Shown in pieces: positions 2 to 28,682 of a DNA stretch of 64,000 bases. The notes below the pieces were generated by a model. The model saw nothing but the letters and a program-made list of their open reading frames with translations, had not been told where the DNA came from and did no database searches. The stretch lies in the NCBI RefSeq assembly GCF_007995055.1, contig NZ_VOQQ01000001.1, positions 2,835,001 through 2,899,000 on the forward strand, read 5' to 3'. Each line of letters begins with the position of its first letter. Positions within the stretch are counted from its first letter, which is position 1. The stretch is from Sphingosinicella ginsenosidimutans. GTDB lineage: Bacteria > Pseudomonadota > Alphaproteobacteria > Sphingomonadales > Sphingomonadaceae. A program made the translations under genes and the position numbers.

Positions 2-769
2 GGATGCCGGGGCGTATCGCTCTCGGAAGCGAAAGCCGACGAGCTGGTCCGAAGCGAGCTGGCAGCGCTGCGGGTGGACGACGGGGACGTAGGGGACTTG
101 CGCGACCTGCTTGCCGAGAAGATCGCGGAGGAGGATGCAGGACTCGCTGCGAAGGCAGGCGAGATCGACCGTGATCTTGGCCTTTTAGCTCAGCGTCTCG
201 ACCGCCTCACCGATGCGGTCTTGGACGGCACGATCGACAAGCAGACATACGAGGAGAGGAAAGCGGCACTCCTCGCTCTGCGATTGACCCTTATGGAGCG
301 CCAAAGCGGCGGCAACTCGACATATTGGCGATCCATTGCAGAAAGGTTCGAACTCGGTTTGACGGCTCTACAAGGCTACGAAATCGGCTTGGACGACGAA
401 AAACGCGATGTTCTCAAATCCGTGGGTTCGAACTTGATAGTGGACCTAAAAAAGCCCGTGTTTCCTATGTTTTCTCCGTTCGCGGAGATACGCGAATGGT
501 CAATTTCGGCTTACGGTGCACCGTCTCGGGCCGCAGCTCGAAAACCGATCCGTGACAGGAAGCGCACCCGATTGCGCAAGCTCCTCACCACCCTTGCGGG
601 ATTGGAGGGCGTGACTCAGACTGGCGGGGATGAATCCCACCAACGACCCGGCAGGGCGCATTGTCGATCGCTACTGCCCAGACCTTACCCCCGAAGAACG
701 AGAAAAGGCCCGCGAGCGTCTGCACAATTTCGCCGGCACCCTCATACGCATCGCCAAGCGACAGGCTGA
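2..769 (+). CDS. Large serine recombinase, C-terminal part (5' end outside window)
   Basis: The frame is open from the window edge. The visible part begins with a residue pattern GCRGVSLSEAKADELV that fits the end of the recombinase zinc-ribbon domain, followed by a long Glu/Arg/Leu-rich helix like the coiled coil of large serine recombinases, with the family-typical phrase IDKQTYEERKAAL. Catalytic and zinc-binding N-terminal parts lie outside. The 25-bp repeat at 532-556 sits inside the coding sequence and encodes AARKPIRD. Downstream of it the C-terminal tail appears replaced by cassette-borne sequence, and the frame runs to 769, overlapping the next gene by 140 bp. Recombinase identity is by pattern recognition only. 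Confidence 0.7.
   Translation, partial: GCRGVSLSEAKADELVRSELAALRVDDGDVGDLRDLLAEKIAEEDAGLAAKAGEIDRDLGLLAQRLDRLTDAVLDGTIDKQTYEERKAALLALRLTLMERQSGGNSTYWRSIAERFELGLTALQGYEIGLDDEKRDVLKSVGSNLIVDLKKPVFPMFSPFAEIREWSISAYGAPSRAAARKPIRDRKRTRLRKLLTTLAGLEGVTQTGGDESHQRPGRAHCRSLLPRPYPRRTRKGPRASAQFRRHPHTHRQATG
532..556 (+). repeat. 25-bp direct repeat, copy 1 (candidate attachment site)
   Basis: Contains AGCTCGAAAACCGATCCG and is identical over 25 bp to 3117-3141 and 6221-6245. The similarity extends more weakly upstream (GTGCACCGTC...). It lies in the recombinase coding frame with GCA at 533-535 in phase. It forms the left boundary of cassette 1. Confidence 0.9.
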
Positions 770-1066
770 GTACGAAGGGCGCCTTCTTCGGGAACCGGAG
801 GGCTTTGCACCCGAGGGCAATTTCACCTGCCGGTACTGTCCGGCACGCGCCACCTGGTTCGGTCGGTGGGATATGACCTGTTCCCGCTGTTTCGAGGCGT
901 TCCGGACCGGCTTCTATCCCGCCTTCGTGGCAAAGCACCCCGGCAGCTACTTCCGGCGACGCGAGCTTGAAGCGGACCTTCGCCTCACGCCCCGGCAGCT
1001 CGATCGGTTGATCGAGCGGGGCGAGCTGGTTGCCCGGCATGACATCTTCTTGCGGAAGGAGAATCC
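532..1066 (+). repeat. Duplicated 535-bp cassette head, copy 1
   Basis: Near-identical to 3117-3651 with colinear alignment; similarity stops just after GAGAATCC at 1066. The duplicated block contains the 25-bp repeat, the recombinase-frame tail and nearly all of the zinc-ribbon/HTH gene. Confidence 0.9.
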
Positions 1067-1118
1067 GCAGCTAACCGTGACTAAACTATCTGGACATACC
1101 CAAACGCTAGGCTGCTAA
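630..1118 (+). CDS. Small zinc-ribbon/HTH protein of cassette 1
   Basis: This 162-residue protein has two CxxC pairs about 15 residues apart (CRYC ... CSRC, near residues 69-90), a probable zinc ribbon. Near residues 120-145 is a helix pair LTPRQLDRLIERGELV resembling the helix-turn-helix of MerR or excisionase-like proteins. A second, slightly diverged copy lies at 3215-3694; the two differ at only about nine positions over the first 145 residues and then end differently. The 3' end overlaps the convergent ATPase gene. Its place directly behind the repeat in both cassettes suggests a role tied to the cassette, such as directionality factor or regulator. That role is inference; no named family was recognised. 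Confidence 0.75.
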   Translation: MNPTNDPAGRIVDRYCPDLTPEEREKARERLHNFAGTLIRIAKRQAEYEGRLLREPEGFAPEGNFTCRYCPARATWFGRWDMTCSRCFEAFRTGFYPAFVAKHPGSYFRRRELEADLRLTPRQLDRLIERGELVARHDIFLRKENPQLTVTKLSGHTQTLGC

Positions 1119-2882
1119 CAAACGTTCAAAAACCGGGTCAAGACGTGTCGTGATGTTCTCATCGCGAGCAACGCGTCGGGCGACATCAATGCACATCGGA
1201 TTGTATGCGATACCGGCCGGAGCAGCGTGCTGTTGATAAAATAGCCTTAAGATATCCTTGCCCCTGAACTGATCCAGTTCCGTGCCGCTGGCAATGATTC
1301 TATCAACGACGCCCGTCACTTCATCGACAAGGTCACCGAGTTCTGGGTCAGCCGGTAACATTGCTTCAACAACCGCACGTTTCTCATCTCGGCTAGCTTT
1401 CAGGGCGTTCACGGTCGCGCCGCTTAGACGGATCATGACCGGCTTGATCTTACGCCTAAGCCGAAGGATTATCTCCTTCTCGCGGAGCGTACTGGCGATC
1501 CTACGCAGCTCCCGTTCAACCGCTTCCGGGTTGGCAAATGTTTCGACTCCCTGCTCGGCGAGGTAGGTATGCAAACTGATGGGACTAAGTAGGAGATTCT
1601 CGATCATGCAAACGGGGAGTTGCTCAACCCCTTCGATCTCATCGGATTGATCTGCATCAATGAGACCCCGAACTCGGATACGAAACGTGTTCTCCGGCAA
1701 ATGCTCGCGAAGACGTTGGACCGTGAGAATCACATTTCCTTTTCCTGTCGTAGGGACAAGAGTCACTGCTGACGCGCGAGGATAGAGTATTTCAAGTAGA
1801 CGGGCGTCGGTAGGCGTTTCGGGGTCGGCGTCTCGCTCGCCTTCGATACATACAATCACCCGGCCCGTCGTCAGGAAGTAAGCGCTGCCAGCGAGCTGCT
1901 TCAATGCTTCGAGGCGCTCCGCATTGTTTGCGATGAGTTTGAGCTGGCTTGCGGTCGGATTACCCGGATCGGGTTCGGCCAAAACAAAAAGCTCGGTGTC
2001 GAATGCTTGATCTAGGATGGTCGGCGAATGCGTTGTGATAATGAACTGTGTACGACTCTCGTCGCTCACGCGTCGCATATACGTCAGAATCTTTGCCTGG
2101 AGGTCGGGATGCAGGTGTTGTTCCGGTTCGTCTATTAGGATGACCCGATCGGCACTCGCTTCCGGCTCGGGCGCCGCAGTTCCCTTAAAAGCTTCAAGGC
2201 TGCGTAGACCAGCTTCCAGCTGTTCCTCGAGGAGGGGCAGGAACAATACGATCACGGCCTTTTCGCCGGAGCTGAGATCGTCGATATCTACCTCATGCGA
2301 GGACGCCGCATCCCTGCGTTCCCAGACGCAGCGTATGTCATCCTCATTCGTAAAGTCGATGCGGGCGAACTTAAGGTGAGGCAGGATGAACTCGGTAAGG
2401 GTGCGCAGCGATGTATAGACGTCTGGGATACTCCCTGCATCGATTGCACCGTTAGATTCACGAAGACGATCTAGCGTGCCCGCCAAGATAGCTTGTCTGC
2501 GATTTTCGATTTTCCCGAGGATGTGTTTGATGGTGCTCCCAGCTTCGTCGACATTGCTGGGAGTACGCGCCGGGTTAAAAAAATTCAGTCCCTCGAAACC
2601 GCTAACATCACCCGAACTGAGAATATCGCGAAGCCATCGAGCAGGACCGCCAAGCCAGCGCCGCTGCACCTGTGTGCTCCTCATTACTCGGTGCGGTCCT
2701 TGATACAGAAACCGAGTATCGGGATCGCTGATACGCTCCCCTCGGCCCTGATTGATCGCGTAGAGCAAAGTCGATTTGCCTACACCATTCGGCCCGGCGA
2801 TGACCATAATGCGCGGAACGTGGGCACATTCCGCCAGGCGAATGGACTTCTGATTTTCTATTTTGAAGCGCTGGAGAGCCAT
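1107..2882 (-). CDS. OLD-like AAA ATPase with DUF4435/TOPRIM-like C-terminal region
   Basis: A 591-residue protein. It shows Walker A GPNGVGKST (about 30-38), ABC-type signature LSSGEK (about 203-208), Walker B VILIDEPEQHLHP (about 247-259) and switch histidine TTHSP (about 284-288). The C-terminal half begins CIEGERDADPETPTD near residue 346 and has a later GLIDAD, a TOPRIM/DUF4435-like acidic pattern. The family resembles the overcoming-lysogenization-defect type nucleases found in antiphage loci. The gene stands alone on the minus strand, convergent with the zinc-ribbon gene. Start at 2882 places MALQRFKIENQKSI at the usual distance from Walker A. A defence role is inferred from family and context. 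Confidence 0.85.
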   Translation of the reverse strand: MALQRFKIENQKSIRLAECAHVPRIMVIAGPNGVGKSTLLYAINQGRGERISDPDTRFLYQGPHRVMRSTQVQRRWLGGPARWLRDILSSGDVSGFEGLNFFNPARTPSNVDEAGSTIKHILGKIENRRQAILAGTLDRLRESNGAIDAGSIPDVYTSLRTLTEFILPHLKFARIDFTNEDDIRCVWERRDAASSHEVDIDDLSSGEKAVIVLFLPLLEEQLEAGLRSLEAFKGTAAPEPEASADRVILIDEPEQHLHPDLQAKILTYMRRVSDESRTQFIITTHSPTILDQAFDTELFVLAEPDPGNPTASQLKLIANNAERLEALKQLAGSAYFLTTGRVIVCIEGERDADPETPTDARLLEILYPRASAVTLVPTTGKGNVILTVQRLREHLPENTFRIRVRGLIDADQSDEIEGVEQLPVCMIENLLLSPISLHTYLAEQGVETFANPEAVERELRRIASTLREKEIILRLRRKIKPVMIRLSGATVNALKASRDEKRAVVEAMLPADPELGDLVDEVTGVVDRIIASGTELDQFRGKDILRLFYQQHAAPAGIAYNPMCIDVARRVARDENITTRLDPVFERLLAA

Positions 2883-3116
2883 GCGCCAAGCATACCGACG
2901 TCAGCCAGCCTGACAAGTAAATGTCTACCAAAACAGCCTCAGGGAGCGGCGGATTTTTCACGGTTCGATACACTAAATCACGGCGTATTTGCTAAACCAG
3001 GTTCGAATCTCTCGTACGGTGTCCCGACCCCAGTTTTCAAAAGCGCCGTAGCACGGCCTATTTACGCGTCCGTTGGATTTATACGCCTCACGAATATGCA
3101 GTGCACCGTCTTGGAC
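2883..3116. other. Non-coding end of cassette 1
   Basis: No convincing gene. The stretch from about 3050 resembles the sequence left of the other repeat copies: CGGCCTATTT also occurs left of copy 3 and GTGCACCGTC left of copy 1. The peptide read in the repeat phase (SAPSWTAARKPIRD) resembles the recombinase end at copy 1 (GAPSRAAARKPIRD), so this may be a decayed recombinase 3' end. Confidence 0.5.
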
Positions 3117-3141
3117 CGCAGCTCGAAAACCGATCCGTGAC
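3117..3141 (+). repeat. 25-bp direct repeat, copy 2 (candidate attachment site)
   Basis: Identical over 25 bp to copies 1 and 3. It forms the right end of cassette 1 and the left end of cassette 2. The reading phase again gives AARKPIRD. Confidence 0.9.
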
Positions 3142-3651
3142 AGGAAGCGCACCCGATTGCGCAAGCTCCTCACCACCCTTGCGGGATTGGAGGGCGTGAC
3201 TCAGACTGGCGGGGATGAATCCCACCAACGACCCGGCAGGGCGCATTGTCGATCGCTACTGCCCAGACCTGACCCCCGACGAACGAGAAAAAGCGCGCGA
3301 GCGCCTGCACAATTTCGCCGGCACCCTCATACGCATCGCCAAGCGGCAGGCTGAGTATGAAGAGCGCCTTCTTCGAGAGCCGGAGGGCTTTGCACCCGAG
3401 GGCAATTTCACCTGCCGGTATTGTCCAGCCGGCGCCACCTGGTTCAACCAGTGGGATATGACTTGTTCCCGCTGTTTCGAGGCGTTCCGGACCGGCTTTT
3501 ATCCCGCCTTCGTAGCAAAGCACCCCGGCAGCTATTTCCGACGGCAGCAGCTTGAAGTGGACCTTCGCCTCACGCCCCGGCAGCTCGATCGGTTGATCGA
3601 GCGGGGCGAGCTGGTTGCCCGGCACGACATCTTCTTGCGGAGGGAGAATCC
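3117..3651 (+). repeat. Duplicated 535-bp cassette head, copy 2
   Basis: Colinear near-identical copy of 532-1066. It also preserves the recombinase-frame tail, which stays open from 3073 to 3354 although the recombinase body is absent here. Confidence 0.9.
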
Positions 3652-3694
3652 CCACCTACACCGCGAGTCCAACGGATCAGGAGTCCCGATTTAG
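3215..3694 (+). CDS. Small zinc-ribbon/HTH protein of cassette 2
   Basis: A 159-residue near-duplicate of the protein at 630-1118. Both CxxC pairs (CRYC, CSRC) and the helix pair LTPRQLDRLIERGELV are conserved. Substitutions cluster between the two cysteine pairs (GATWFNQW against RATWFGRW). The last 15 or so residues differ because the duplicated block ends just before the stop codon. It overlaps the end of the convergent ATPase gene by 4 bp, a tighter copy of the arrangement in cassette 1. Conservation of the gene in both cassettes while cargo changes argues that it serves the cassette itself. Function unknown. Confidence 0.75.
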   Translation: MNPTNDPAGRIVDRYCPDLTPDEREKARERLHNFAGTLIRIAKRQAEYEERLLREPEGFAPEGNFTCRYCPAGATWFNQWDMTCSRCFEAFRTGFYPAFVAKHPGSYFRRQQLEVDLRLTPRQLDRLIERGELVARHDIFLRRENPHLHRESNGSGVPI

Positions 3695-6015
3695 AGGGGA
3701 GTCGCCCCATCGAGGATCGCATAGTGACCGGGAGCGATGGCCTCCATCATCTCGAATAGTTCGCCCAGCACCTTCTGCGTCTCCGGGACGAGCGCCGGGT
3801 CGAAGCCCGCTCCGGTGATGTGCGACTGGTCGTTAGTGAACTTGTAGATAGCGTCCAGTTTCCGTGCGTCATGGCCGGCGGCCTTTAACTCTTCCATCTT
3901 TTTGTACGGCTTCGCCCCGCTTGGCACCTGGAACATCAGGAAGGTGTCCCAGACCTTCCTAGCGATATTTGGAACCGGATACGCCTGCATGATCGACCCG
4001 TCCTGGGCCGCCCGCATTTCCTTCAAACGCTTGAAGAGATAGTGATACTCGCTCTCATATTCGAGCAGCTCCTTGTCCATTACTTCGATGGTCGCATGGC
4101 GCGCCCCGTCGCGGACGTGGTTCTTAATCATGTAGAACCCAGTGCCGCCACGATCGGCGCTCTTCCGCCAATTCAGGAGCAGCTTGAGAAAGTCGAAATT
4201 GTGGGTGAGGACGAAGACCTGCCCGCAGTCCAAGACGGCGTTCTTGAGGAAGCTGAACGCCTGATAGAGAGAAGTCGAATCGAGGCTGGAGATCGGATCG
4301 TCGATGACGACGATTCCCGTCTGCTTAGGAAATTGCCCGTCATTCAAGTGGACCACGAAATAGACGAAGGCGAGCGCCGTCTTTTCGCCCTCGCTCACGT
4401 ACCGGGCGGGAATCCCTCCGCGCATGATCTTGTAGCCGACCACCACTTCGGTGGGCGTGCCATCCTCCCCCTCCACTTCCTCAACCAACGGCTCGAACCG
4501 CAATTCGTCGCGACCAAGGAAGGTACGTAGCCCATCATTGATATGGCCGCACGCGGCGTGGGCAGAGGACACCTTTTGCCTGGCGGCAGCAATCCGCTTG
4601 CGCAGTGCGGTGATCTCCTCCTCGCGCCGCTTAAGGTCCTCCTCTAGCGCGGCAATGGCTTGATTCCGTTCCTGAACCTCGGAAAAAATCGTGCTCAGAT
4701 AGTGCGCCTTGATCGCAGAGATGGATTGGCCCTGAAGCTTCGCGAACTCCCGAGATTTCACGTTGTGAGTGGAAATAAGCGCGTTCGCCGCCGAGATCGC
4801 ATTGGCAAGCGTATCCGTATCGAGCCGGACCTGAAGGGGAGTCGACACGGTGGTTTGCGATTTTTTGGCCTGGAGAGCCTGCCCTAACACGGTGATCTGA
4901 GTCTCAAGGGCGGCCTTTGCCGTCTCGAAATCCCTCGCCTTTGCCGAATAGGTATTTTGCAGCTCGCCATAGAGCCTCGCCGCGTCGGGTACTGCGCACG
5001 CTCGCACAGCGATCAATGCGCTGCGTAGCCGTACCAGAACGTCCTCAATATCGGCCTTGAGCTTGCGGTCGGCATCGTTGAAATGTCTCGCGAGCTGAGC
5101 CAGACGTTCGACAGGTATGGCGTTCCCACAGAACTCGCAAGCGCCTGAACCGAGCCGGTTGTGCAGATGGAAGCCCGTCTCCACCCACTCCGAAATCTCC
5201 GGATTTGCAGCGAGCTGGCTGACAACCTCGGTCTCCACGGTGGTCGCACAGAGGGTTTCCGCGAGCGTGGCGCATCCCTGAGCCGTCTGCAAAGCATCCA
5301 CCTGCTCGGTCTCTCCCATCGCTGGAACTAAGACCTCAGGGATTTCCGGCAGCAGGTCCTGCTTGAGTGCAAGCACGTGAGCTGCCATCTCTTCCTCGGG
5401 GAGGATGGTTGCCTCCTTCAAGGCTGCGAAATCGGTTTTCGCCTGGGGGCTCCGGTATGTGCGCGACGCGGCGCCGGTACTTGCGAGCGCGGCCCCGATG
5501 GTGCGGGCTATGTCGGTAAACGCCGTGTCGTTCTCTTTCTCCTTGCGGCGCTTCTTCTGGCGATAGCCCTCCAACTCCCTCAGCTTCCCGATCGCCTCGG
5601 GATTGGACGGATCGCCATTGAGTTCCTGTTCGTCCTGCTGAATCTGCGCGACCAGCTCCTTGTTCTCCTCGCCGAGCAAGAGCGAAATGGAATTCGCCGA
5701 GGATTCGAGCACGCGAACATTCTTTTGGATGTAGTCCTGATTGAAAACCCGGATCGGCGTCGGGAAAGCGTCCCCCGGCCCGAACTTCGCGCCGTTAGAA
5801 TCCTCGATTTCATAGGACAGGTCTGGAAGCGTAGCCGCGGACAACTCGTCAAAGAGCCGGGTCAGGGTCGTCTTGCCGCACCCATTCCAGCCGTAGATGA
5901 GATTGAACCTCCGGAATCCTGCAACGCCCGCCTTCCACGTGAAGTCGGCGAACACGAGCCCCAAACTCTGGATGCGATCTATTCTTGAAATCACGCGCTT
6001 ATTACACCGCACCAC
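3691..6015 (-). CDS. AAA_13-type ATPase with zinc-hook-like CxxC (RloC/PrrC-like organisation)
   Basis: A 774-residue protein with Walker A GWNGCGKTT (about 42-50), charged coiled-coil segments on both sides of a CEFC motif (about 293-296), signature SEGEKTA (about 541-547), Walker B GIVVIDDPISSLD (about 567-579) and LTHNF (about 603-607). The central CxxC between coiled coils recalls the zinc hook of Rad50 and RloC. Behind the ATPase core is an alpha-helical region with FTNDQSHI near residue 720, reminiscent of the C-terminal region of AAA_13 proteins; whether it is an active HEPN/anticodon nuclease cannot be decided. It is the sole cargo of cassette 2. An antiphage role is inferred from family. 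Confidence 0.8.
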   Translation of the reverse strand: MVRCNKRVISRIDRIQSLGLVFADFTWKAGVAGFRRFNLIYGWNGCGKTTLTRLFDELSAATLPDLSYEIEDSNGAKFGPGDAFPTPIRVFNQDYIQKNVRVLESSANSISLLLGEENKELVAQIQQDEQELNGDPSNPEAIGKLRELEGYRQKKRRKEKENDTAFTDIARTIGAALASTGAASRTYRSPQAKTDFAALKEATILPEEEMAAHVLALKQDLLPEIPEVLVPAMGETEQVDALQTAQGCATLAETLCATTVETEVVSQLAANPEISEWVETGFHLHNRLGSGACEFCGNAIPVERLAQLARHFNDADRKLKADIEDVLVRLRSALIAVRACAVPDAARLYGELQNTYSAKARDFETAKAALETQITVLGQALQAKKSQTTVSTPLQVRLDTDTLANAISAANALISTHNVKSREFAKLQGQSISAIKAHYLSTIFSEVQERNQAIAALEEDLKRREEEITALRKRIAAARQKVSSAHAACGHINDGLRTFLGRDELRFEPLVEEVEGEDGTPTEVVVGYKIMRGGIPARYVSEGEKTALAFVYFVVHLNDGQFPKQTGIVVIDDPISSLDSTSLYQAFSFLKNAVLDCGQVFVLTHNFDFLKLLLNWRKSADRGGTGFYMIKNHVRDGARHATIEVMDKELLEYESEYHYLFKRLKEMRAAQDGSIMQAYPVPNIARKVWDTFLMFQVPSGAKPYKKMEELKAAGHDARKLDAIYKFTNDQSHITGAGFDPALVPETQKVLGELFEMMEAIAPGHYAILDGATPL

Positions 6016-6188
6016 GGCGCCGACGGCAACTGAGTTCCGATCCCCGTATCATCACGAGACACACGGCCAGATCATGGCTTAATGTCGAGCGAAGTTCGAA
6101 CTTTCGGTGCGGTCTATCGACACCCGGGACCTTTCGTGGCGTGACGGTGTTGTATGGCGGCCTATTTGCTTTGAATCACCGGTTATGC

Positions 6189-6374
6189 GCCTGGCGTATA
6201 TCTGGTGCCCCGCATCAGGGCGCAGCTCGAAAACCGATCCGTGACGAATCTCGCAATTTGATTGCTCGTTTGCTCGACACTCTTGACCAAGCTCGCACCT
6301 ATAACGACGCGCCGGATGAGCAAGGCGGCGGGCCAATCTCTTGTGCATACTTCGGCCAGCATGCCACTCCATAG
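6189..6374 (+). pseudogene. Detached C-terminal tail of a serine recombinase
   Basis: Read in the same phase as copy 1, this segment gives AWRISGAPHQGAARKPIRD followed by a helical tail ESRNLIARLLDTL and a stop at 6372-6374. The pattern GxPH...R...LLD resembles the usual last residues of alphaproteobacterial large serine recombinases. It is read as the original recombinase end, pushed about 5.7 kb away by the two cassettes. The open frame continues upstream to 5985 but no start or body of a recombinase is present. The assignment is inference. Confidence 0.55.
6221..6245 (+). repeat. 25-bp direct repeat, copy 3 (candidate attachment site)
   Basis: Identical over 25 bp to copies 1 and 2; similarity ends exactly after GTGAC, where the next bases are GAATCTC instead of AGGAAGC. 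It marks the right end of cassette 2. Confidence 0.9.
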
Positions 6375-11389: not shown

Positions 11390-11767
11390 ATGAAACTCCT
11401 ACTTCGCCGCAACCAACGATCCGGCCTTCTCGGGAAGGTCGCCTTCCAGCTCGACGTTCGCGCCGATCTTTCCGACGAGGAGCAGAGGAACATCACCCGA
11501 TATCGCCTCGGCGACACCATGCTGTATGAGAGCCACGAGATGCTCGATCGGGGGAGCGGTCTCCTCGGTTTGGCCTCCCGGCTGGCATACAAGGCGGTGA
11601 CGCTCACCGTGAGCGTCAACGACCTGGCCGGTGGCAAGCGCATCGAGTGCAAGGATATCGTCGAGATGCTGGCGATCGAGGAGCACGTGACCGAAGCCGC
11701 CCGCACGTTCGCGCAGGTGCTCCATGCCGCCGCCCATTTCGGCGGCGAGGAGGTCGTCGAGATATAG
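11390..11767 (+). CDS. Hypothetical protein preceding a VirD4/HerA-like ATPase
   Basis: ATG 11390 (MKLLLRRNQRSGLLGKV) has GGGGG about 6 bp upstream; a GTG further upstream (11378) would add four residues. The 125-residue product has beta-rich N-terminal and helical C-terminal halves and no signal or membrane segment. Not recognised. It precedes the large ATPase gene by about 60 bp on the same strand and likely forms a unit with it. Confidence 0.55.
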   Translation: MKLLLRRNQRSGLLGKVAFQLDVRADLSDEEQRNITRYRLGDTMLYESHEMLDRGSGLLGLASRLAYKAVTLTVSVNDLAGGKRIECKDIVEMLAIEEHVTEAARTFAQVLHAAAHFGGEEVVEI

Positions 11768-11826
11768 GGCTCTGGGGGAACTCGAACCTTAGCAACTGGC
11801 TTTCCGGCAGCGCCCGCGGCCGGGAG

Positions 11827-14424
11827 ATGCGCGATATGCGCCGCGCGTGGGACCAGACCGAGGGCGCGTGGCGCGCCTCGCCCTTCCATGACGAGCGCTA
11901 CGCCTTCGAGGTCGCCAAGGCCGTCATGCGCGAAGTCGGGGAACGCTGCGAGCGGCAGCCGGCGTGGTGCATCATGGTCGAAATCGCCATGACGGCCGCC
12001 GCCTTCCTCGACCTTGAGGACGTGGAGCCGTTCGCGCTCGACTGGCCGGCCATCGAGGGGGATGCGTCGGTCGCCGTGGCTGCCCGCCAGATGATGGCCC
12101 GCCGCAGGCGGTGGGCCTTCGAGTATGACCAGATGCTCGGCATCGTGCGCCGGCAGCTCGTGGATGCCTTCCTCATGCTCATCCGCGCGATGCCGGAGAG
12201 TTGCTTCGACACGGACGACGAGGGAGCGTTCACCGTGCCGCTCGTGAGCCTTCTTGACCGGCCGGCGGAGGTCGTCGAGCGGCTCATGGTGTTCCTGTAC
12301 GACAACGGCGCCCTTCAACACGAACTCTTCCACTATGCCCGCGAGCGGCTCGCCACGAACTTGCTCGTCGCCTCGGGCCTCCCGCCGAGCGCCAACCCCC
12401 GCGAGCACGCCGACCGGCTGGTGATGCCCACCCGCAAGAAAAGCGCCACGCCCACGGAGCTTGCCGATCTCTATCTCGCCGGAACGCCGTTTGCGGACTT
12501 GCTCGCCCTTCCCGTTCCGTTCCATATCCCGGCCAGCGCCCGCTTCGAGCATTGCCACATCGTAGGCGGCACGGGCCACGGCAAGACCCAGCTCATGCAG
12601 CGCATGATCCACGCCGATCTCGTCGCGGCTCGGAACGACGGCCGTTCCGTCGTCGTGATCGACAGCCAGGGCGACCTCATCAACAAGCTGGTCCGGCTCG
12701 ACCTGTTCGCTCCCGACGAGCGGGGATCGCTCGCCGATCGCCTCGTTCTCATTGACCCCTCGGACGTTGAGTATCCGGCGTCGCTCAACCTCTTTGACGC
12801 GCCCCTGTCGCGCACGGCCGCATACGGCCCGGCCGACCGGGAGCGGGTCCTGAACGGCGTCGTGGAGCTGTATGAGAGCTTTTTCGGGGCGCTGTTGGGC
12901 GCGGAGCTGACGCAGAAGCAGGGCGTCATTTTCCGGTACCTGGCCCGCCTCATGCTCGCCATTCCCGGCGCCACCATCGGCACGCTCATGCAGCTCATGG
13001 AGGACGGCCGGGCGTACCGGTCGCAGATGGAAAGCTTGCCGGGATCGGCCCGCCGCTTCTTCGAGACGGAGTTCTTCCACCCCTCCTTTGCCGCCACCAA
13101 GAAGCAGATTCTGAAACGCCTGTGGGGCGTCCTCTCGACCCCGGCCTTCGAGCGCATGTTCGCGCAGCGGCACAACAAGCTCGACCTCTTCACGGCCACC
13201 AACGACGGCAAGATCATCCTCATCAACACCGCCAAGGACCTCCTCAAGACCGAGGGGAGCGCGCTCTTCGGCCGCTTCTTCGTCTCCATGCTCGCGCAGG
13301 CCGCGCTTGAGCGCTCCACCATCCCAGAGAGCAGGCGCACGCCCACCTTCGTGTACGTGGACGAGGCGCAGGAGTATTTCGACGACACCGTGGAGACGAT
13401 CCTTTCGCAGGGAAGGAAATACGGCGTCGGGATCACGCTGGCCCACCAGTCGCTCGACCAGCTCTCCCCGCGCCTCAAGGCCGCCTTCCTCTCCAATACG
13501 AGCCTCAAATGCGCGGGCGGCGTCTCCGCGAAAGACGCGCGGGCGCTTTCAAGCGAGCTGCACACGACGCCCGAGTTCATCGAAGGGATGCGACGGCGAA
13601 GCGACCGGACGGAGTTCGCCGTCTGGCTCAAGAATCGGACGCCCGAGGCCCTCAACCTCACCGTTCCTTTGGGCTTCCTCGAGCGCCAACCGACGCTCTC
13701 CGAGGAAGCGTATGACGAGCTGATCGAGCGCAACCGCGAGCGGTATTGCGGCCGCATGGAGGACATGGTGGAGGAGTTGCCGCCGGCCGCCGCCATGCTC
13801 GCGATCGAATCGCGCGAGCCATCACCCGCCGCGCCGGAGATCCCCGCCGACAGGGAGGCCGAACGGCCCCCTCCCCTCGCGCGCCCGTCGCCCGCATCCT
13901 CGCCCTCCCGCAAGCTTGGCAAGGGCGGCCCCAAGCACCGCTATCTCCAATCGCTGGTCAAGGAGCTGGGCGAGCAGCAGGGCTTCCGCGCCACCATCGA
14001 AGCGCCGCTGCCTGGCGGCGGGCAGATCGACGTGCTTTTGGAGCAGGGCGAGACGGCCGTGCCGGTGGAAATCTCCGTGACCACGCCCGCCGAGTACGAG
14101 TGCGGCAATATCCGCAAATGCCTGGCGGCGGGCTTCCCACGCGTCGCGTTCGTCCTCGCCAAATCCAAGGCCACCCACGGCCGCTTTCAGTCCGCCCTCC
14201 TCGCCGGCCTTACGCCCGAGGAGCAGGCGCGCGTCGCCATTCTCGCGCCCGAGGACATTCCCGACTATATCGCCGCGCTCTCGCCCGCTCCTGCGCCCTC
14301 CGAATCCGTGGTGAAGGGATGGAAGGTGCGCGTGTCGCGCACGTCCGTGTCGCCCGAGGACGCCAAGGAGCGCCGGGACCGGCTGGCGAAGATCGTGGCG
14401 CGATCGCTCTCGCGCGGAGATTGA
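11827..14424 (+). CDS. VirD4/HerA-like ATPase with restriction-endonuclease-like C-terminal domain
   Basis: 865 residues from ATG 11827; a second ATG three codons on has better spacing from GGGAG. Walker A GGTGHGKTQ lies near 246-254, Walker B TFVYVDEAQEY near 506-516, and between and after them are the DSQGDLINKLV and LAHQSLDQLSP signatures of TraG/TraD/VirD4-like coupling ATPases. No N-terminal membrane segments are present, unlike true coupling proteins. A Pro-rich linker (about 660-700) leads to a domain with GGGQIDVLLEQ...VPVEIS (about 728-750), the D-(x)n-ExS/K arrangement of PD-(D/E)XK nucleases with Ser in place of the usual Lys. A DNA-translocating role is inferred; no relaxase or mating genes are nearby. 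Confidence 0.8.
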   Translation: MRDMRRAWDQTEGAWRASPFHDERYAFEVAKAVMREVGERCERQPAWCIMVEIAMTAAAFLDLEDVEPFALDWPAIEGDASVAVAARQMMARRRRWAFEYDQMLGIVRRQLVDAFLMLIRAMPESCFDTDDEGAFTVPLVSLLDRPAEVVERLMVFLYDNGALQHELFHYARERLATNLLVASGLPPSANPREHADRLVMPTRKKSATPTELADLYLAGTPFADLLALPVPFHIPASARFEHCHIVGGTGHGKTQLMQRMIHADLVAARNDGRSVVVIDSQGDLINKLVRLDLFAPDERGSLADRLVLIDPSDVEYPASLNLFDAPLSRTAAYGPADRERVLNGVVELYESFFGALLGAELTQKQGVIFRYLARLMLAIPGATIGTLMQLMEDGRAYRSQMESLPGSARRFFETEFFHPSFAATKKQILKRLWGVLSTPAFERMFAQRHNKLDLFTATNDGKIILINTAKDLLKTEGSALFGRFFVSMLAQAALERSTIPESRRTPTFVYVDEAQEYFDDTVETILSQGRKYGVGITLAHQSLDQLSPRLKAAFLSNTSLKCAGGVSAKDARALSSELHTTPEFIEGMRRRSDRTEFAVWLKNRTPEALNLTVPLGFLERQPTLSEEAYDELIERNRERYCGRMEDMVEELPPAAAMLAIESREPSPAAPEIPADREAERPPPLARPSPASSPSRKLGKGGPKHRYLQSLVKELGEQQGFRATIEAPLPGGGQIDVLLEQGETAVPVEISVTTPAEYECGNIRKCLAAGFPRVAFVLAKSKATHGRFQSALLAGLTPEEQARVAILAPEDIPDYIAALSPAPAPSESVVKGWKVRVSRTSVSPEDAKERRDRLAKIVARSLSRGD

Positions 14425-16348: not shown

Positions 16349-18535
16349 CTACGAACGAGCGGCGGGTGCAGGCGCCGACGCACCTTCCGCTATCTGTGCT
16401 GCGTGGCTGGCCGGCCGCTGGACCGGAACGAGACCTCCGCCCGCTACCGCGAACACGCGGTCGCATTGCGAAATGGGTCCTGGCCGATGCGCGCTGATAA
16501 TTCGGGTGATCGGAAGCGCCTTGAGCGCCATCATCACCACCGCCTCGGAGGCTGGATCGAGATGCGCGGTGCCCTCGTCGATGAACAGGACGGAGGGGTC
16601 GGGATAGAGGGCGCGGGCGAGCAGGATGCGTTGCTTCTGGCCGCCGGAAAGCGCGCTCCCCATGTCGCCCACCAGCGTGTCGTAGCGCATGGGCATCGCC
16701 TCGATCTCGTCATGGATGCCCGCAAGCCGCGCGGCCTCGACGACGCGCGCCATGCCGATCTCGGGATCGAAAAAGGCGATGTTCTCGGCGAGGCTGCCGG
16801 CGAACAGCGCGTCGTCCTGGCTCACCGAGCCGATCTGCCGGCGCCAGTTGCGAAGGCCGAGGCCGGCGAGCGGCGTCCCGTCCACCAGCAGGGTGCCGCC
16901 GCTCGGCACGAACAGGCCCATCATGATCTTGAGGAGCGTGGTCTTGCCGCCGCCGGAGGGACCGACGAGCGCCACCATCTCGCCCGGCTCGACCTTCAGA
17001 TTGACGTTGCGCAGGACGTCAGGCTCGCCCGCGCCATAGCGGAAGCCGATCCCCCGCAGCTCGATCGCCCCGCGTATCCGGGCTGCGGTCTCCGACCGCG
17101 GCGTCTCTCCCTCCTCGGGCGGAGCGAGCGCGATATCCGCGATGCGCGAGAGGTGGACGCCGATGAGGTTGTATTGGATCGCCTGATCGACCAGCCGGGT
17201 CGCGGCGTCGAGGAATTGCTGCTTGTAGGCTTGGAAGGCAAAGATCATGCCCACCGTGAAATCGCCCGACATGGCAAGCCGGATCGCGAGATAGACGAAC
17301 AGGACGCGCTCAAGGGCGAGGATGAGCTGCCCGCCCGCGTCGAAACCGGCCGAGAAGCGGCTGAGGCTGATCTGAGCATTCACCGCGTCGGCCTTGAGTT
17401 GCTGCCAAGCCCGTTGACGGTTGCCCTCTTGGCCGAACGCCTTGATCGCGGCGATGCCCCGGATCGACTCAATGAAGGCGCTGCTCTCGCGCGCCGCAGT
17501 GGTGATCGTGCTGACGTTGCGGGTGCGCAGCGCGTGAATGAAGCCGACCTTGAGCGCCGCGAACAGCATCCAGGCGACCAGCGCCACGCCGCCGAGCAAG
17601 GGGGAATAGACGAACATCAGCCCGAGCGTGACGAACGCCATCGCGCCGTCGATCAGCGCCGATACGAGGCCCTGGCTGAGGATATTGGAGATGGGCGTCG
17701 TCGAATTGAAGCGGGAGATGATGTCGCCAACATGGCGTTTCTCGAACCACGGCAACGGCAGTCGCATCAAGTGGCGGAACAGATTGACGACGATCTGATA
17801 GCTGAGCGCATTGCCAAGACTGACGAGGATCAATGACCGCAGCCAACTCGTCAGCATATTGATCACCGCCAGCCCGCCGAAGCCGAGCGCGAGCATCAAC
17901 AGCAGGTCCTGGTCGGAGGCCGGGAACACCGTATCGACAGCGAGCTGAAGGTAAAACGGCGATGCCAACGCGATCAGCTGGAGCACGACCGAGAGCAGCA
18001 GCACGCTGCGTAGCGACGACCACAGCCCCGTTATCCGTGTCCAGAGCTGGCTTATCCGCAGGCGCGAACGCTCCACTCCGGGCTGGAAGCGTTCGGATGG
18101 CGTCAGCTCCAACACCACGCCCGTGAAATGCCGCGATAGCTCGGCCTCGTCGATCCGGCGCTCCCCGAGCGCCGGATCGTGAATCAGGAAGCGGCGTCCG
18201 CGCAGCGTGCGCGAGACGCCGACGAGAACGACGAAATGGTTGAGGTCCCAGTGCAGGACGGCCGGGAGCGGCACCTGCTCTAGATTCTCGATCTCGCCCC
18301 TAAGCGGCCGAGCGATGAAGCCGATCGCCTCGGCGGTCTGTATCAAGGCCTTGAGCGTCGCGCCCTTGAGCGAAAGGCTGAACCTGCGCCTCATCGCCGG
18401 CAGGTCGGTGTCGAGCCCGTGCCGCCCGGCGACCATAGCGAGGCAAGCGAGCCCGCACTCGGCCGCCTCGCTTTGATGGATCATCGGCGTGCGGCGGATG
18501 CTCGTCAGATTCAGAAGGTCAGCCGAGTCCAGCAT
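16349..18535 (-). CDS. Peptidase C39-containing ABC transporter
   Basis: 728 residues from ATG 18535, overlapping the Fic gene stop by 17 bp. The frame is open further upstream only as a shadow of the Fic gene. Residues about 18-150 are a C39 peptidase with catalytic Cys in SEAAECGLACLAM, His in HWDLNHFVVLVG and Asp in IHDPALG. Membrane helices follow from about 190 to 460. The nucleotide-binding domain has Walker A GPSGGGKTT, signature LSGGQKQR, Walker B VLFIDEGTAHLD and the H-loop ISAHR. It should cleave the leader of the adjacent precursor and export it across the inner membrane together with the HlyD protein. All catalytic residues are present. Confidence 0.92.
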   Translation of the reverse strand: MLDSADLLNLTSIRRTPMIHQSEAAECGLACLAMVAGRHGLDTDLPAMRRRFSLSLKGATLKALIQTAEAIGFIARPLRGEIENLEQVPLPAVLHWDLNHFVVLVGVSRTLRGRRFLIHDPALGERRIDEAELSRHFTGVVLELTPSERFQPGVERSRLRISQLWTRITGLWSSLRSVLLLSVVLQLIALASPFYLQLAVDTVFPASDQDLLLMLALGFGGLAVINMLTSWLRSLILVSLGNALSYQIVVNLFRHLMRLPLPWFEKRHVGDIISRFNSTTPISNILSQGLVSALIDGAMAFVTLGLMFVYSPLLGGVALVAWMLFAALKVGFIHALRTRNVSTITTAARESSAFIESIRGIAAIKAFGQEGNRQRAWQQLKADAVNAQISLSRFSAGFDAGGQLILALERVLFVYLAIRLAMSGDFTVGMIFAFQAYKQQFLDAATRLVDQAIQYNLIGVHLSRIADIALAPPEEGETPRSETAARIRGAIELRGIGFRYGAGEPDVLRNVNLKVEPGEMVALVGPSGGGKTTLLKIMMGLFVPSGGTLLVDGTPLAGLGLRNWRRQIGSVSQDDALFAGSLAENIAFFDPEIGMARVVEAARLAGIHDEIEAMPMRYDTLVGDMGSALSGGQKQRILLARALYPDPSVLFIDEGTAHLDPASEAVVMMALKALPITRIISAHRPGPISQCDRVFAVAGGGLVPVQRPASHAAQIAEGASAPAPAARS

Positions 18536-19448
18536 CCGCGTCCTGTGCCAATACCTGTTCGGCCGAGCTGATCCGCTGGAGGGTGGCCGAAAGCCGCGCG
18601 GCGTCACGAAAGAAAGCCTGAGGCCCGCCCCAATCACCGCCGTAGAGCGCGCGCCGGAGCTTGATGATGAAGCTGCCCCGCTGAAGGGCCGCGATGAGGT
18701 GAATCGGGACGAAATGCCGGGTGCCCGTCCCGGCCGCGAGGACGAGGTTGAACATGGTTCGCCCCGTCCGCCCGTTTCCGTCCGTGAAAGGATGGGCGTG
18801 CATGATCGCCCCGTAGGCCACCGTCGCGCAGAGCCCGGGATGGGTGGCGATGTGGTCGGCAAGGAAGCGATGAAGTCGTGCCACGAGCGGACGGCAGTGC
18901 CGGTGATGCGGGAACGCGATCTTGTCGCCGCCCGCATCGGACCGAATCATCATGCTGATCGGACTGGTGCGAAATCCGTTGGCGCCCTCGCCGAGCCGCG
19001 CGTGGACTCGCGCCAAGAGTTCGGCGAACTCGGTCTCACTGGTGCCGGCGAGCGGGGGCAACCGATTGACCATCCGCGCGTACGCCGCGAACTCCTCTCT
19101 CGTCTTTGGGAACAGCGTTCGGGGCTCGGGCGCATCGCGATCGTCGAAGAACGGCGCGAGTTCGTCGACAAGGCCGGGATAGTCGCGCGGGTCGGACAGC
19201 GCAGACGACAAGCGGTCGGCGAGTTGCTGCAATGACGCTGCCGAGCTGGCAAGGGCCTCGCTCGCGCTCAATTCCAACGCCTTGGCGCTCACGATGAGGG
19301 GTGAGAGCGGTGCGGTCGAAGGATAGGAGATCCACTCCGTCAACGAGACCGACCGATCGCGCGGCGCTTGAAAAACGCCCTGGGCGTCCGCGTTTACCGC
19401 GCGCTTCGCCTGCGGCGCGCGCCTGGCCGGCGGCCATCGGGCGCTCAC
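18519..19448 (-). CDS. Fic-domain protein within an ABC export operon
   Basis: 309 residues. The complete Fic core HPFTDGNGRTGR lies near residues 222-233, preceded by helices of the Fic fold. The catalytic His and the phosphate-binding GNGR loop are intact, so AMP transfer (or related nucleotide transfer) is plausible. No inhibitory S/TxxxE(G/N) motif was identified with confidence. The start overlaps the HlyD stop by 4 bp and its stop overlaps the transporter start, so it is translated from the same message as the exporter. The target is unknown; the precursor, the transporter or a host protein are possible. Confidence 0.88.
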   Translation of the reverse strand: MSARWPPARRAPQAKRAVNADAQGVFQAPRDRSVSLTEWISYPSTAPLSPLIVSAKALELSASEALASSAASLQQLADRLSSALSDPRDYPGLVDELAPFFDDRDAPEPRTLFPKTREEFAAYARMVNRLPPLAGTSETEFAELLARVHARLGEGANGFRTSPISMMIRSDAGGDKIAFPHHRHCRPLVARLHRFLADHIATHPGLCATVAYGAIMHAHPFTDGNGRTGRTMFNLVLAAGTGTRHFVPIHLIAALQRGSFIIKLRRALYGGDWGGPQAFFRDAARLSATLQRISSAEQVLAQDADAGLG

Positions 19449-20707
19449 CGGCTCCTCCGCATCACTGCGTTGAGCGGCTCGAGCAGCCAGTCGAGGAAGG
19501 AGCGGCGGTCGAGGATGATGTTGGCGGTCAGCGTCATGCCGGGCTGGAGCGGCTCGCGCCGGCCGAAGGCGTCGATACCCTGCGTCTCGGGCGTCACTTC
19601 GATCCGATAAACCGCCTCCTGAATGTCGAGCGGCGCGGCGAGCTGGCGCGGGTCGATCACGGTGCGCGATACCCGCGCGATCCGGCCTCCAAAGCTGCCG
19701 AAGCGCTGATACGGGAAGGCGTCGTAGAGAAGCCGCACCTCCTGGCCGGGCCTGACGAAGCCGATCGCGCGCGTCGGCGCGTAGATGTCGGCATGGAGCG
19801 TCGAGCCGTCGGGCACGATCTCCATCAACGGCACGCTTGTCTCGGCGGTGCGGCCGAGCGCGGTCTGAACCGCCGCGACCCGGCCCGAGATCGGCGCGAT
19901 GACTGCATAGGCCCGCTCGCCGCTGAGCTGGGCGCGTTGCTGAACGAGCGACTCGCCCGAACTGCGCGCGGTTGCCACTTCGCTTTCGGCATCCGCCGCC
20001 GCGCGCGCGATCTGCGCCGTCGCCTGCGCCTCCTCCGAGATCAGCGAATTGAGCTGCTGGTGAAGCTGCGCCAGCCCCTGCCGCGCGGAAAGGAAGGCTT
20101 GTCGCCGCTGCTCGATCTCGATCCGGCTGATAAAGCCGCTTTCCCGCAGCGACTGGACGCGTTCGAACAATTCGCCCGCCGAGGCGGCGGTCTGTTCCTG
20201 GAGCGCGATTTGCGCGGTGAGGTCGGCGCGCTGACGGCGTAGCCCGGCCACCGTGGCCGCGAGCCGCGCTCGCTCGCTGTCCGCCCGATGGCGCGCCGAC
20301 AGCTCCTGCTCCGTGGCCAGCGCCCGCTGCCCCTCGATCGCCGCGATGCTCACGGCAATGGCGCTGTCGCCGGCCTCGTCTTCCTGTTCGGTGCGGATCG
20401 TGGCGATGCGCTGGCCCTGTCGGACGTAATCGCCCTCGCGCACGGCGAGCGCCGTCACCTGGCCTGGCCGGATCGCGAAAATCTTGGCCGACGGGCGATC
20501 GGTGACGAGGATGCCGCGCGCCGTCTCCGTCCGCGCATAGCTGCCGAAGGCGAGCCAGAGAGAAACCGCGACGATCAACCCAAAAATCAGGAGCACGAGC
20601 GCGTGAGTGCGCACCGGCTGGGACAGGACAATTTCGCCCGCGATACGAGCTTGGCGCGCGTCAACGACTTCCGCTCGAAACAGTGAGTGTGGGGGCTGCG
20701 CATTCAT
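19445..20707 (-). CDS. HlyD-family periplasmic adaptor
   Basis: 420 residues with a short cytoplasmic N-terminus, one membrane helix (about 36-54, LVLLIFGLIVAVSLWLAF), a biotinyl-lipoyl-like half (VREGDYVRQGQRIATI), a long coiled coil (about 110-240) and the beta-barrel region with AGRVAAVQTALG-like and GQEVRLLYDAFPYQRFG segments typical of bacteriocin/RTX adaptors. It is the first gene of the export operon; the next gene overlaps by 4 bp. The outer membrane partner (TolC type) is not encoded nearby. Confidence 0.9.
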   Translation of the reverse strand: MNAQPPHSLFRAEVVDARQARIAGEIVLSQPVRTHALVLLIFGLIVAVSLWLAFGSYARTETARGILVTDRPSAKIFAIRPGQVTALAVREGDYVRQGQRIATIRTEQEDEAGDSAIAVSIAAIEGQRALATEQELSARHRADSERARLAATVAGLRRQRADLTAQIALQEQTAASAGELFERVQSLRESGFISRIEIEQRRQAFLSARQGLAQLHQQLNSLISEEAQATAQIARAAADAESEVATARSSGESLVQQRAQLSGERAYAVIAPISGRVAAVQTALGRTAETSVPLMEIVPDGSTLHADIYAPTRAIGFVRPGQEVRLLYDAFPYQRFGSFGGRIARVSRTVIDPRQLAAPLDIQEAVYRIEVTPETQGIDAFGRREPLQPGMTLTANIILDRRSFLDWLLEPLNAVMRRSR

Positions 20708-21089: not shown

Positions 21090-22283
21090 ATGCACACCCA
21101 CGAAGGCGCGATCTCGTATTTCGGCCGCGTCGCGTTCCGCAACCAGTCGCAGACCTTCGGCATCCGCCAAGCGGACCGGCTCGCCCATATATATGTGGTC
21201 GGTAGGACAGGAGTGGGGAAATCGACCCTGCTTGAACAGCTCGCGCGAGGGGACGCCGAGGCCGGCCGGGGCTTCGCCTTCCTCGATCCGCACGGCGACC
21301 TCGCGGAGCGGATATATGCCGGGCTCTCGCCGTTCACCCGCGAGCGAACGATTTACCTGAACACCCCCGATCCCGACCAACCGTACGGGTACAATCCGCT
21401 GCGCCGCGTGGCCGACGCCAAGATACCGCTGGCCGCCTCGGGGCTTTTGGAGACGTTCCGCAAGCTCTGGCCGAGCGCTTGGGGCGTGCGCATGGAGCAC
21501 GTCCTCCGCAACAGCCTCTATGCGCTGTTGGAACGCGACGGCTCAACGCTGCCGGACATCCTGCGCCTCTACAGCAACGATGCGTTCCGCAGGAGCGTCA
21601 CCACCCGGATCAAGAATCCCGTGGTGCGGGCCTTCTGGCGCGACGAGTTCGCCCACTACCATCCCCGCCAGCAAGCGGAAGCGGTCGCGCCCATCCAAAA
21701 CAAGCTCGGCGCGCTCCTGGCCGACCCGATGCTCTATCGCATCCTCGTTGCCCCTAAGACCGACCTGCACTTGCGCCGGCTCATGGACGCGGGCGGCATC
21801 CTCTTGGTCAACCTGTCGCGCGGGCAGATCGGCGAGGACAGCGCGCTCGTCCTCGGCAACCTCCTCGTCTCTACCGTGGGCCTCGCCGCGTTCAGCCGCG
21901 CCGACCAGCCCGAGCACGAGCGCCGCCCCTTCTTCCTCTATGTGGACGAGTTCCAGAGCTTCACGACGCTCTCGTTCGCCACGATGCTCGCCGAATTGCG
22001 CAGTCATGCCCTGGGGTTGGTGCTCGCGCACCAGTACCTTCATCAGCTGGAGCCGGACATTCTCCATGCCGTGCTCGGGAACGTCGGCACGCTCATATCC
22101 TTCCGGGTGGGCGCCGAGGACGCGCCGATCTTGGCCCGCGAGTTCTTTCCGACGTTCGACGTTCACGACCTCCTCAATCTCCCGAATTGGCGCTTCTATC
22201 TCAAGCTCATGATCGACGGCGCGCCCTCGCAGCCGTTCAGCGGGGAACTGGACAGTCGATCGGCTCGAAAAGCGATCGGCTAG
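21090..22283 (+). CDS. TraG/VirD4-like conjugative-transfer ATPase without membrane anchor
   Basis: 397 residues from ATG 21090. Walker A GRTGVGKST lies near 38-46, followed by DPHGDLAERIY. Walker B FFLYVDEFQSF is near 281-291 and LAHQYLHQLEPD near 315-326, the order expected for type IV coupling-type ATPases. There are no transmembrane segments and the protein is short. It is unrelated in detail to the larger ATPase at 11827-14424. It stands alone on the plus strand and ends overlapping the convergent exported-protein genes. Its role in DNA transfer is unproven because no relaxase accompanies it. Confidence 0.8.
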   Translation: MHTHEGAISYFGRVAFRNQSQTFGIRQADRLAHIYVVGRTGVGKSTLLEQLARGDAEAGRGFAFLDPHGDLAERIYAGLSPFTRERTIYLNTPDPDQPYGYNPLRRVADAKIPLAASGLLETFRKLWPSAWGVRMEHVLRNSLYALLERDGSTLPDILRLYSNDAFRRSVTTRIKNPVVRAFWRDEFAHYHPRQQAEAVAPIQNKLGALLADPMLYRILVAPKTDLHLRRLMDAGGILLVNLSRGQIGEDSALVLGNLLVSTVGLAAFSRADQPEHERRPFFLYVDEFQSFTTLSFATMLAELRSHALGLVLAHQYLHQLEPDILHAVLGNVGTLISFRVGAEDAPILAREFFPTFDVHDLLNLPNWRFYLKLMIDGAPSQPFSGELDSRSARKAIG

Positions 22284-27028: not shown

Positions 27029-27457
27029 CTATGACGCTCCCTGCCCGGCCGCCCTGCCGAGAAACGTGCGCATTTTCATACCGCTCTGGCGCGCCGTCCC
27101 GCGCCGCGCCCGCTCCCAATTGGCGAACGTGGCTTCGTCAACGCGGGCAGCGCGGGCCGCCTGCTTGATGGACAGCCCTCGTCGCAGCCGCTCGGCGCGC
27201 ACCTCCTCGGCGGCAGTCGTGGGCGCTGCCCATGGCTCGCGCCCGAGGAAGCGGATGATGGCGGGATAGAAGGCGGGCGGCGGGAGGCAGCGGCCTTTCT
27301 CCCACTTGATGAGCGTGTCGACGCCCACGCCAAGGCGCTTCGCCACGTCCTTTTGGAGAAGGCCGAGGTCGCGGCGGCGGCGGCGAAGCTGCGCGGGCAA
27401 GTCGTCCCCGGCATCGCGCAACCGATCGGGCTTTCGCGCGCGCAGGGATGCCCGCAC
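27029..27457 (-). CDS. Double helix-turn-helix protein fused in frame to the comM fragment
   Basis: From a GTG at 27457, 142 residues contain two XRE-like HTH units: [25 protein letters not shown] (about 25-50) and [33 protein letters not shown] (about 95-125), separated by a Pro-rich linker with FLGREPW. Such double-HTH proteins occur as free-standing regulators or excisionase-like factors. Here the comM frame reads straight into it, so it may be expressed as a ComM chimera or from its own GTG. It is the outermost gene of the island. Confidence 0.65.
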
Positions 27458-27484
27458 GCCCGGCAGCAAGAAGGCAACGCGATC

Positions 27485-28522: not shown

Positions 28523-28682
28523 TTCAAAATCCCCCGCTCCCGACTTCGTTGTGGCAGCGGGGACTTGCAAAGTCGAGCCATGCGCGACGCCGTCACTTGT
28601 ATCGGCCACAGGATGACGGGCGAACGCCATTCAGCCTTCGCGATCCGATATGCGTATTGCGCCCTCGAGACGCCTCCCCCAC

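Follow-up and report, generated by a model that had tools for sequence, protein, structure and literature searches.

The window studied here, a stretch of 64,000 nucleotides of Sphingosinicella ginsenosidimutans, opens inside the gene for a large serine recombinase (LSR) of 557 codons with the Pfam domains PF00239, PF07508 and PF13408. An ORF of 71 codons directly precedes this gene and overlaps it at ATGA, and an ATPase, an Xre regulator and a RuvC-like protein are encoded divergently from the pair. The locus is within an island of ~32 kb that splits comM. The N-terminal part of comM, fused to an HTH, is found at 27029-28630 of the window, and the C-terminal part (Mg_chelatase_C) forms an in-frame fusion with a second LSR (G000:C1:2829417-2831450, L004:12417-14450, minus strand). 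This comM-fused LSR is ~2.6 kb upstream of the recombinase under study and is one of three other LSR matches in the genome. The island also contains two ORFs for TraD/TrwB-like coupling proteins (window 11647-14424 and 21090-22283) and, at 16349-20707, a peptidase C39 ABC exporter with a HlyD-type protein, resembling bacteriocin export. The end of the recombinase gene and the DNA behind it are organised as follows.

2..769, plus strand: C-terminal part of the LSR (557 aa; start upstream at G000:C1:2834096; Resolvase, Recombinase, Zn_ribbon_recom), with a putatively cassette-encoded tail from ~516 on
516..556, plus strand: attI-like site within the recombinase gene, consisting of the crossover core GTG (516-518) and the conserved right half
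516..3100, plus strand: cassette 1
516..1080, plus strand: constant head of cassette 1, comprising the tail frame of the recombinase and most of OrfA; identity to the cassette 2 head 93.6%
630..1118, plus strand: OrfA of cassette 1, whose N-terminal part has a relative in the small ORF immediately before the recombinase gene
1107..2882, minus strand: cargo of cassette 1, an AAA_21/AAA_15 ATPase with AriAB (PARIS) as top PADLOC match (E 4.6e-43)
3041..3100, plus strand: 3' end of cassette 1, a left half-site
3101..3141, plus strand: second site, attC-like
3101..6204, plus strand: cassette 2
3124..3354, plus strand: spare recombinase tail frame, 77 codons including the stop
3215..3694, plus strand: OrfA of cassette 2
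3691..6015, minus strand: cargo of cassette 2, an AAA_13 ATPase of the PADLOC candidate system PDC-S06 (E 3.9e-239)
6145..6204, plus strand: 3' end of cassette 2, a left half-site resembling the 3' end of cassette 1
6205..6245, plus strand: third site
6228..6374, plus strand: tail frame right of the third site

The original prediction started from three identical direct repeats of 25 bp, and their positions (532-556, 3117-3141 and 6221-6245) and identity were borne out. The first copy is indeed inside the LSR coding sequence, and translation confirms that the three copies share one reading phase, giving ..AARKPIRD. The inner 23-mer matches the genome three times forward and never in reverse with up to 3 mismatches, and the reversed pattern used as a control has no match. 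The repeat does not occur mainly outside recombinase genes: one of the three genomic copies is in the recombinase gene and the other two bound the cassettes behind it. Neither the site nor the cassette head was found elsewhere in the S. ginsenosidimutans genome, and no tRNA gene was found near the window sites. The repeat proper starts 16 bp to the left of each 25-mer, at GTG (516, 3101 and 6205). Thus, the claim that the repeats bound cassettes stands, but the 25-mer itself is not the boundary, which falls at the GTG crossover. The shared head, first given as 535 bp, extends over 566 bp at 93.6% identity and holds the tail frame together with OrfA in another frame. The cargo ATPases were said to be unrelated, and they do belong to two different families. 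The frame at 6228-6374 weakly resembles recombinase tails among the matches listed and is possibly the tail that predates both insertions.

A protein search returned 5139 relatives among 7999 scored candidates, and the best 120 of these 5139 were used. The A118 integrase (4kis/6dnw) is matched by the recombinase profile as far as position 457-458 of the profile, and therefore the tail is beyond the A118 integrase fold. When the first 60 of the best 120 relatives are aligned, conservation runs to GAPxRGAVRT and then stops, and the tails differ. A scan of genome contigs found 121 relatives, of which the best 80 gave 79 loci. The G522 and G1280 regions were treated as the same records as L039 and L044. 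The loci come from Pseudomonadota, Acidobacteriota, Verrucomicrobiota, Patescibacteria and others. One relative was found in viral contigs and one in plasmids (E <= 1e-60). The neighbourhood recurs in these 79 loci, with a RuvC-like protein in 60, an Xre regulator in 62 and the common ATPase in 44, mostly upstream and on the opposite strand. A small ORF upstream of the recombinase, with 0-100 bp between its end and the start of the recombinase, is found in 64. The model of the RuvC-like protein has a pLDDT of 90.7, and RuvC resolvases make up its top 12 matches in the PDB. A PDB search with the profile of the neighbour ATPase gave no convincing match.

Extra copies of the site were sought in 78 loci, the window locus among them, out of the 80 formed by these 79 and the window locus. 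The query for each locus was the 36 bp that surround the end site of its own recombinase, and a copy was counted at 23 or more matches of 36. On the same strand there are 36 copies downstream (695 kb) and none upstream (771 kb); the minus strand has 4, and the reversed-sequence control has 6 (78 loci). The 36 include a 23/36 match 54,184 bp away in the window genome, which was rejected as a real site and taken as chance, as well as L065 (51 bp away), L077 (282 bp away) and L061 with its twin L063. A downstream copy is present in 24 of 78 loci, with three each in L040, L061, L064 and L088, and the remaining 54 have no second site at this threshold. Among 11 further loci, two have arrays (L133, 34/36; L136, 32/36), and matches of 22/36 in L138 and L140 were left uncounted. 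L168 and L169 have no convincing array. A general site matrix with a cut-off of 16, kept out of these counts, gave 34 downstream and 7 upstream matches. It was observed that the 3' ends of the L065 and L142 recombinase genes have internal site copies 51 and 60 bp apart, possibly minimal cassettes or the result of slippage.

The hosts of the arrays are Pseudomonadota (Alphaproteobacteria, Nitrosomonas, Nitrotoga), Acidobacteriota and Verrucomicrobiota. At least 6 changes are needed to explain how the 22 rows with arrays are distributed on the recombinase tree, against a mean of 8.8 after shuffling, and 8 of 500 shuffles were as low; 47 rows of the tree were in neither group. Array loci are therefore somewhat clustered without forming a single clade.

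The one-sided distribution of the copies bears on which enzyme moves the cassettes. It is conceivable that the cassettes are real but moved by another recombinase, such as the LSR inserted in comM, and that the site is merely hosted by the LSR gene; the close position of that LSR and the three other LSR matches in the genome would suit this explanation. However, the site sequence is specific to each locus and equals the end of the local recombinase, and extra copies on the same strand are absent upstream in all 78 loci. Such an arrangement is thus very unlikely, and the LSR of the cassette locus is the probable catalyst.

Where the sites exchange can be read from the alignment of the recombinase site with its downstream copies in a set of 20 loci, from which L063 (same as L061), L065, L077 and L072 (23/36) were left out. 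With positions given relative to the codon of R482, mean identity to the left of -23 is 0.02-0.53 and mostly ~0.25 (0.51 at -24), whereas it is 0.82-1.00, with an average of ~0.90, between -23 (where the G of GTG lies) and +5. This step is not an artefact of selection, because the interval by which sites were chosen started further left, at -26. The consensus of 78 recombinase ends from GTG rightward is GTGgcCCgtATCGgGaCanAcCTCGAACTt. The DNA from GTG rightward is best read as the head of each cassette. Since similarity begins sharply at GTG, GxPxRxxxR and the tail would be encoded by the cassette. The well-kept motif GxPxRxxxRT at the C-terminus of the recombinases, GAPxRxxxRKPIRD in the window, is thus apparently cassette-encoded, and each insertion would give the recombinase a new C-terminus.

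An empty and a filled form of one locus are available for comparison. L081 and L082 have one site each and L088 has four. Since L081 equals L082 over 16 kb, the two were counted as one observation, and this is the only such set, all of it from MAGs. L082 and L088 are 99.87% identical from -7052 to +43, and -24..4111 of L082 corresponds to 5867..10002 of L088 at 99.93%. Between these segments L088 has an insertion of 5,891 bp that holds three cassettes and is exact to within 7 bp. The fourth tail of L088 is the tail of the L082 recombinase. The comparison places the switch between -24 and -18, independently of the 20-locus alignment. The more distant flanks are 96-98% identical. The upstream break in the match was rejected as a boundary because it coincides with a stretch of N. 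Related genomes thus do differ in cassette content exactly at the site, and the difference may be explained by gain or loss, in either direction. No empty-site genome for the window locus was found among 396 genomes of the order. An LSR match at E <= 1e-60 is present in 7 of these, counting the window genome, and OrfA in the window genome alone. No recombinase closer than 77% was found among relatives of L100 (match in 2 of 125 genomes, query included), and none closer than 72% among relatives of L087 (match in 7 of 390, query included).

These boundaries also bear on whether site-specific recombination is needed at all. Arrays might arise by tandem duplication and homologous recombination between repeats. 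Indeed, a two-cassette block of ~5 kb occurs twice, exactly, in L061 (+0..+10018), by duplication or as an assembly product, and heads are often nearly identical within an array. However, the cargo between the repeats is unrelated, the GTG boundary is sharp over 20 loci, and the L088 insertion is exact to within a few base pairs. We regard this explanation as the least probable of those considered, and site-specific insertion at GTG remains the preferred one.

The units between the sites are 0.5-5.5 kb long with one to five ORFs of at least 60 aa, and constant heads and 3' ends surround unrelated cargo. L100 unit 2 and L103 unit 1, from Nitrosomonas and Nitrotoga, have heads and 3' ends in common around different cargo (131 bp, 76%), and unit 1 of L061 and unit 1 of L073, on two contigs of one MAG, have 355 bp in common at 86%. 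In six arrays (two with near-identical ends), the 3' ends of cassettes are alike among themselves over 60 bp (0.54-0.64) but unlike the recombinase (0.22-0.30). Hairpins resembling terminators were seen by eye ~45-65 bp before the site in cassette 3' ends of L088 and L049.

Cargo ORFs are found on both strands. A set of 52 ORFs of at least 110 aa was scanned, and 7 of 10 chosen large ORFs have a PADLOC match at 1e-25 or better: PDC-S06, two GajA, two GajB, PDC-M49A and SoFic. Both L100 unit 2 and L103 unit 1 encode Gabija, with the GajA ATPase-TOPRIM beside the GajB helicase, although the best PADLOC models differ. Among the families listed, ThsB_TIR, PemK, NYN and a transposase have single matches and NUDIX is found in two. 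When 20 cargo ORFs were checked one by one, 12 matched no Pfam family at 1e-4. The cargo therefore appears rich in genes that look like defence genes, perhaps with others, and it may defend its hosts against phages. The claim that the cassettes carry defence genes thus gains from the strong PADLOC matches and is weakened by the 12 ORFs outside any Pfam family.

The content of the units can also be set against SCC-like accretion. SCC elements accrete at one site, and by analogy the units might be relics of complete LSR-borne elements that lost their recombinases, so that no true cassettes exist. Complex SCC elements are mentioned in PMC6222049. One unit would fit such a history, as the Gabija cassette of L103 also encodes a further serine recombinase, a relative of the platform enzyme (L103:11654-12676), the only one of the 52 unit ORFs that matches Resolvase/Recombinase. 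However, the 3' ends of the units do not resemble recombinase coding sequence in the six arrays, and the units are small, with few ORFs and constant ends around unrelated cargo. Accreted relics are thus unlikely, if less so than either of the other two alternatives, and the units are better taken as cassettes.

The prediction further held that each insertion replaces the C-terminal tail of the recombinase. In support, an in-frame tail of 17-64 codons follows 27 of 27 downstream copies (L061 copies 2-3, L063, L065, L072, L077 and the window were left out of this set); 26 end at a stop and that of L053 at the contig end. The other two frames run for 2-63 and 1-102 codons. In 20 gap-free pairs, six of which are from L064 and not all of which are independent, differences at codon positions 1, 2 and 3 number 145, 104 and 191 of 617, and the tail frame has a pN/pS of 0.50, against 0.71 and 1.25 for the others. 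By a protein-guided alignment, which favours low values, pN/pS is 0.21-0.80 in 19 of 19 loci, all below 1. For downstream copies alone the tail frame is no lower than frame +1 (0.70 vs 0.55), and the three tails of the window have no codon-position bias (0.40/0.40/0.39, ungapped). A tail is presumably required in the working recombinase. AAGTCCC-like heptamers are repeated after the tail stop in L061, L063, L073 and L088.

OrfA, which shares the head with the tail frame in the window, consists of the small upstream ORF and an additional part; a CxxC...CxxC segment and a possible HTH were seen by eye after its N-terminal part. The copy in cassette 2 has a sub-threshold match to AbiEi_4 (E 0.015). 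OrfA has no match in the protein database, and relatives were found only by an iterated profile in the loci, with some of the matches in or just behind units of L085, L087, L088 and L112. The recombinase tail fits a by-eye pattern for the out-of-frame OrfA of the window in 10 of the 120 listed relatives, its own included. As a guess, OrfA and the small ORF may be directionality or accessory factors.

A further group of relatives targets tRNA genes. In 10 of the 79 loci (L055, L057, L062, L067, L074, L078, L098, L102, L104 and L114) the 3' end of the recombinase gene runs antisense into a complete tRNA gene, so that its last codons are on the opposite strand of the tRNA. Eight are from records named Patescibacteria, Zambryskibacteria, Doudnabacteria and Liptonbacteria, of which we take the last three to be Patescibacteria, and two are from unclassified MAGs. 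No second site was found in these 10 loci. On the tRNA side of the junction, GTG is found among the first 6 bases in 8 of 10 loci, with TCGAAC or a similar motif behind it by eye. The LSR family and the GTG junction are the same as in the array members, but here the right half is the intact 3' end of the tRNA, whereas in array members it is borne by the cassette. The distance between TCGAA and GTG is 16 bp in 7 of the 8 tRNA loci (14 in L102) against 22 bp in 9 of the 10 array sites printed. In the A118/LI integrases, the zinc-domain motif is shifted by 5 bp between attB and attP (PMC3783163), and the 6-bp difference between tRNA and cassette right halves may recall this shift. By comparison of sequences, left halves derive either from the recombinase gene or from a cassette end, and most right halves differ by 6 bp between tRNA and cassette loci; these features might or might not reflect distinct attP- and attB-type sites with a common 2-bp crossover core.

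With the anatomy, the sharp boundary, the spread over several phyla, the empty and filled forms and the in-frame tails observed, the locus is in all probability a platform for gene-cassette capture, run by an LSR that has its attachment site in the 3' end of its own gene. In this model every site would consist of two halves around the GTG core. The right half would open each cassette and encode GxPxRxxxR and a short tail with its stop codon, and the left half would come from the coding sequence of the recombinase (attI-like) or from the 3' end of a cassette (attC-like). A cassette, probably as a circle, would join its cassette-left/cassette-right site to the recombinase-left/recombinase-right site at the gene end, giving an insertion with one site of each kind. 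Because both site types would be recreated on insertion, capture could be repeated, and because the recombinase DNA ends at the core, capture would hand the enzyme the tail of the incoming cassette. The idea that the recombinase uses the end of its own gene as the landing site and collects genes there is thus upheld by the same-strand copies, found only downstream, and by the empty and filled sites of L081, L082 and L088.

The comparison with integron-like or SCC-like systems made in the prediction stands in part. Integrons, with the tyrosine integrase IntI, attI and attC cassettes, are the model for modular gene capture with folded attC sites. As in an integron, cassettes with unrelated cargo line up at a site beside a fixed recombinase, the site would be recreated on insertion, and the cargo includes defence genes. 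Unlike in an integron, only serine recombinase domains are present without tyrosine IntI, the attI-like site is inside the recombinase gene, and the cassettes re-encode the C-terminus of the recombinase; cargo lies in both orientations, whereas integron cassette genes mostly have one. In SCC, the end of the target gene is resupplied by the incoming DNA. An LSR, insertion in the 3' region of a gene and direct repeats of ~50 bp are shared with SCC/ECC (CcrAB at rlmH; PMC6222049). However, the target is the recombinase gene itself instead of rlmH, the units lack a recombinase except for the single match in L103, whereas ccr is inside SCC elements, and small cassettes with constant ends and the RuvC-like/Xre/ATPase neighbourhood are not SCC features. 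Thus, the system acts like an integron and like SCC yet is neither, as it lacks defining features of each. Among the open-access papers listed, covered by titles and the beginnings of abstracts, with subscription papers and bioRxiv outside this range, no serine-recombinase cassette arrays and no attachment site in a recombinase's own gene appear.

A bolder version, which we put forward tentatively and at somewhat less than even chances, is that this serine-based system is as general as integrons, with an integrase gene that is always unfinished and is completed by each cassette. Swapping of tails would then couple the last capture to the activity, site choice or direction of the enzyme, and tRNA-targeting LSR elements would be the ancestors of the system, their tRNA half-site having been replaced by a cassette-borne one. 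What a replaceable C-terminus does to an LSR is a question raised by these loci, and many orthogonal att sites usable as tools are predicted. If true, a serine-recombinase counterpart would be a second, unrelated solution to integron-type capture, and it would help to explain how environmental bacteria stock and shuffle small defence systems.
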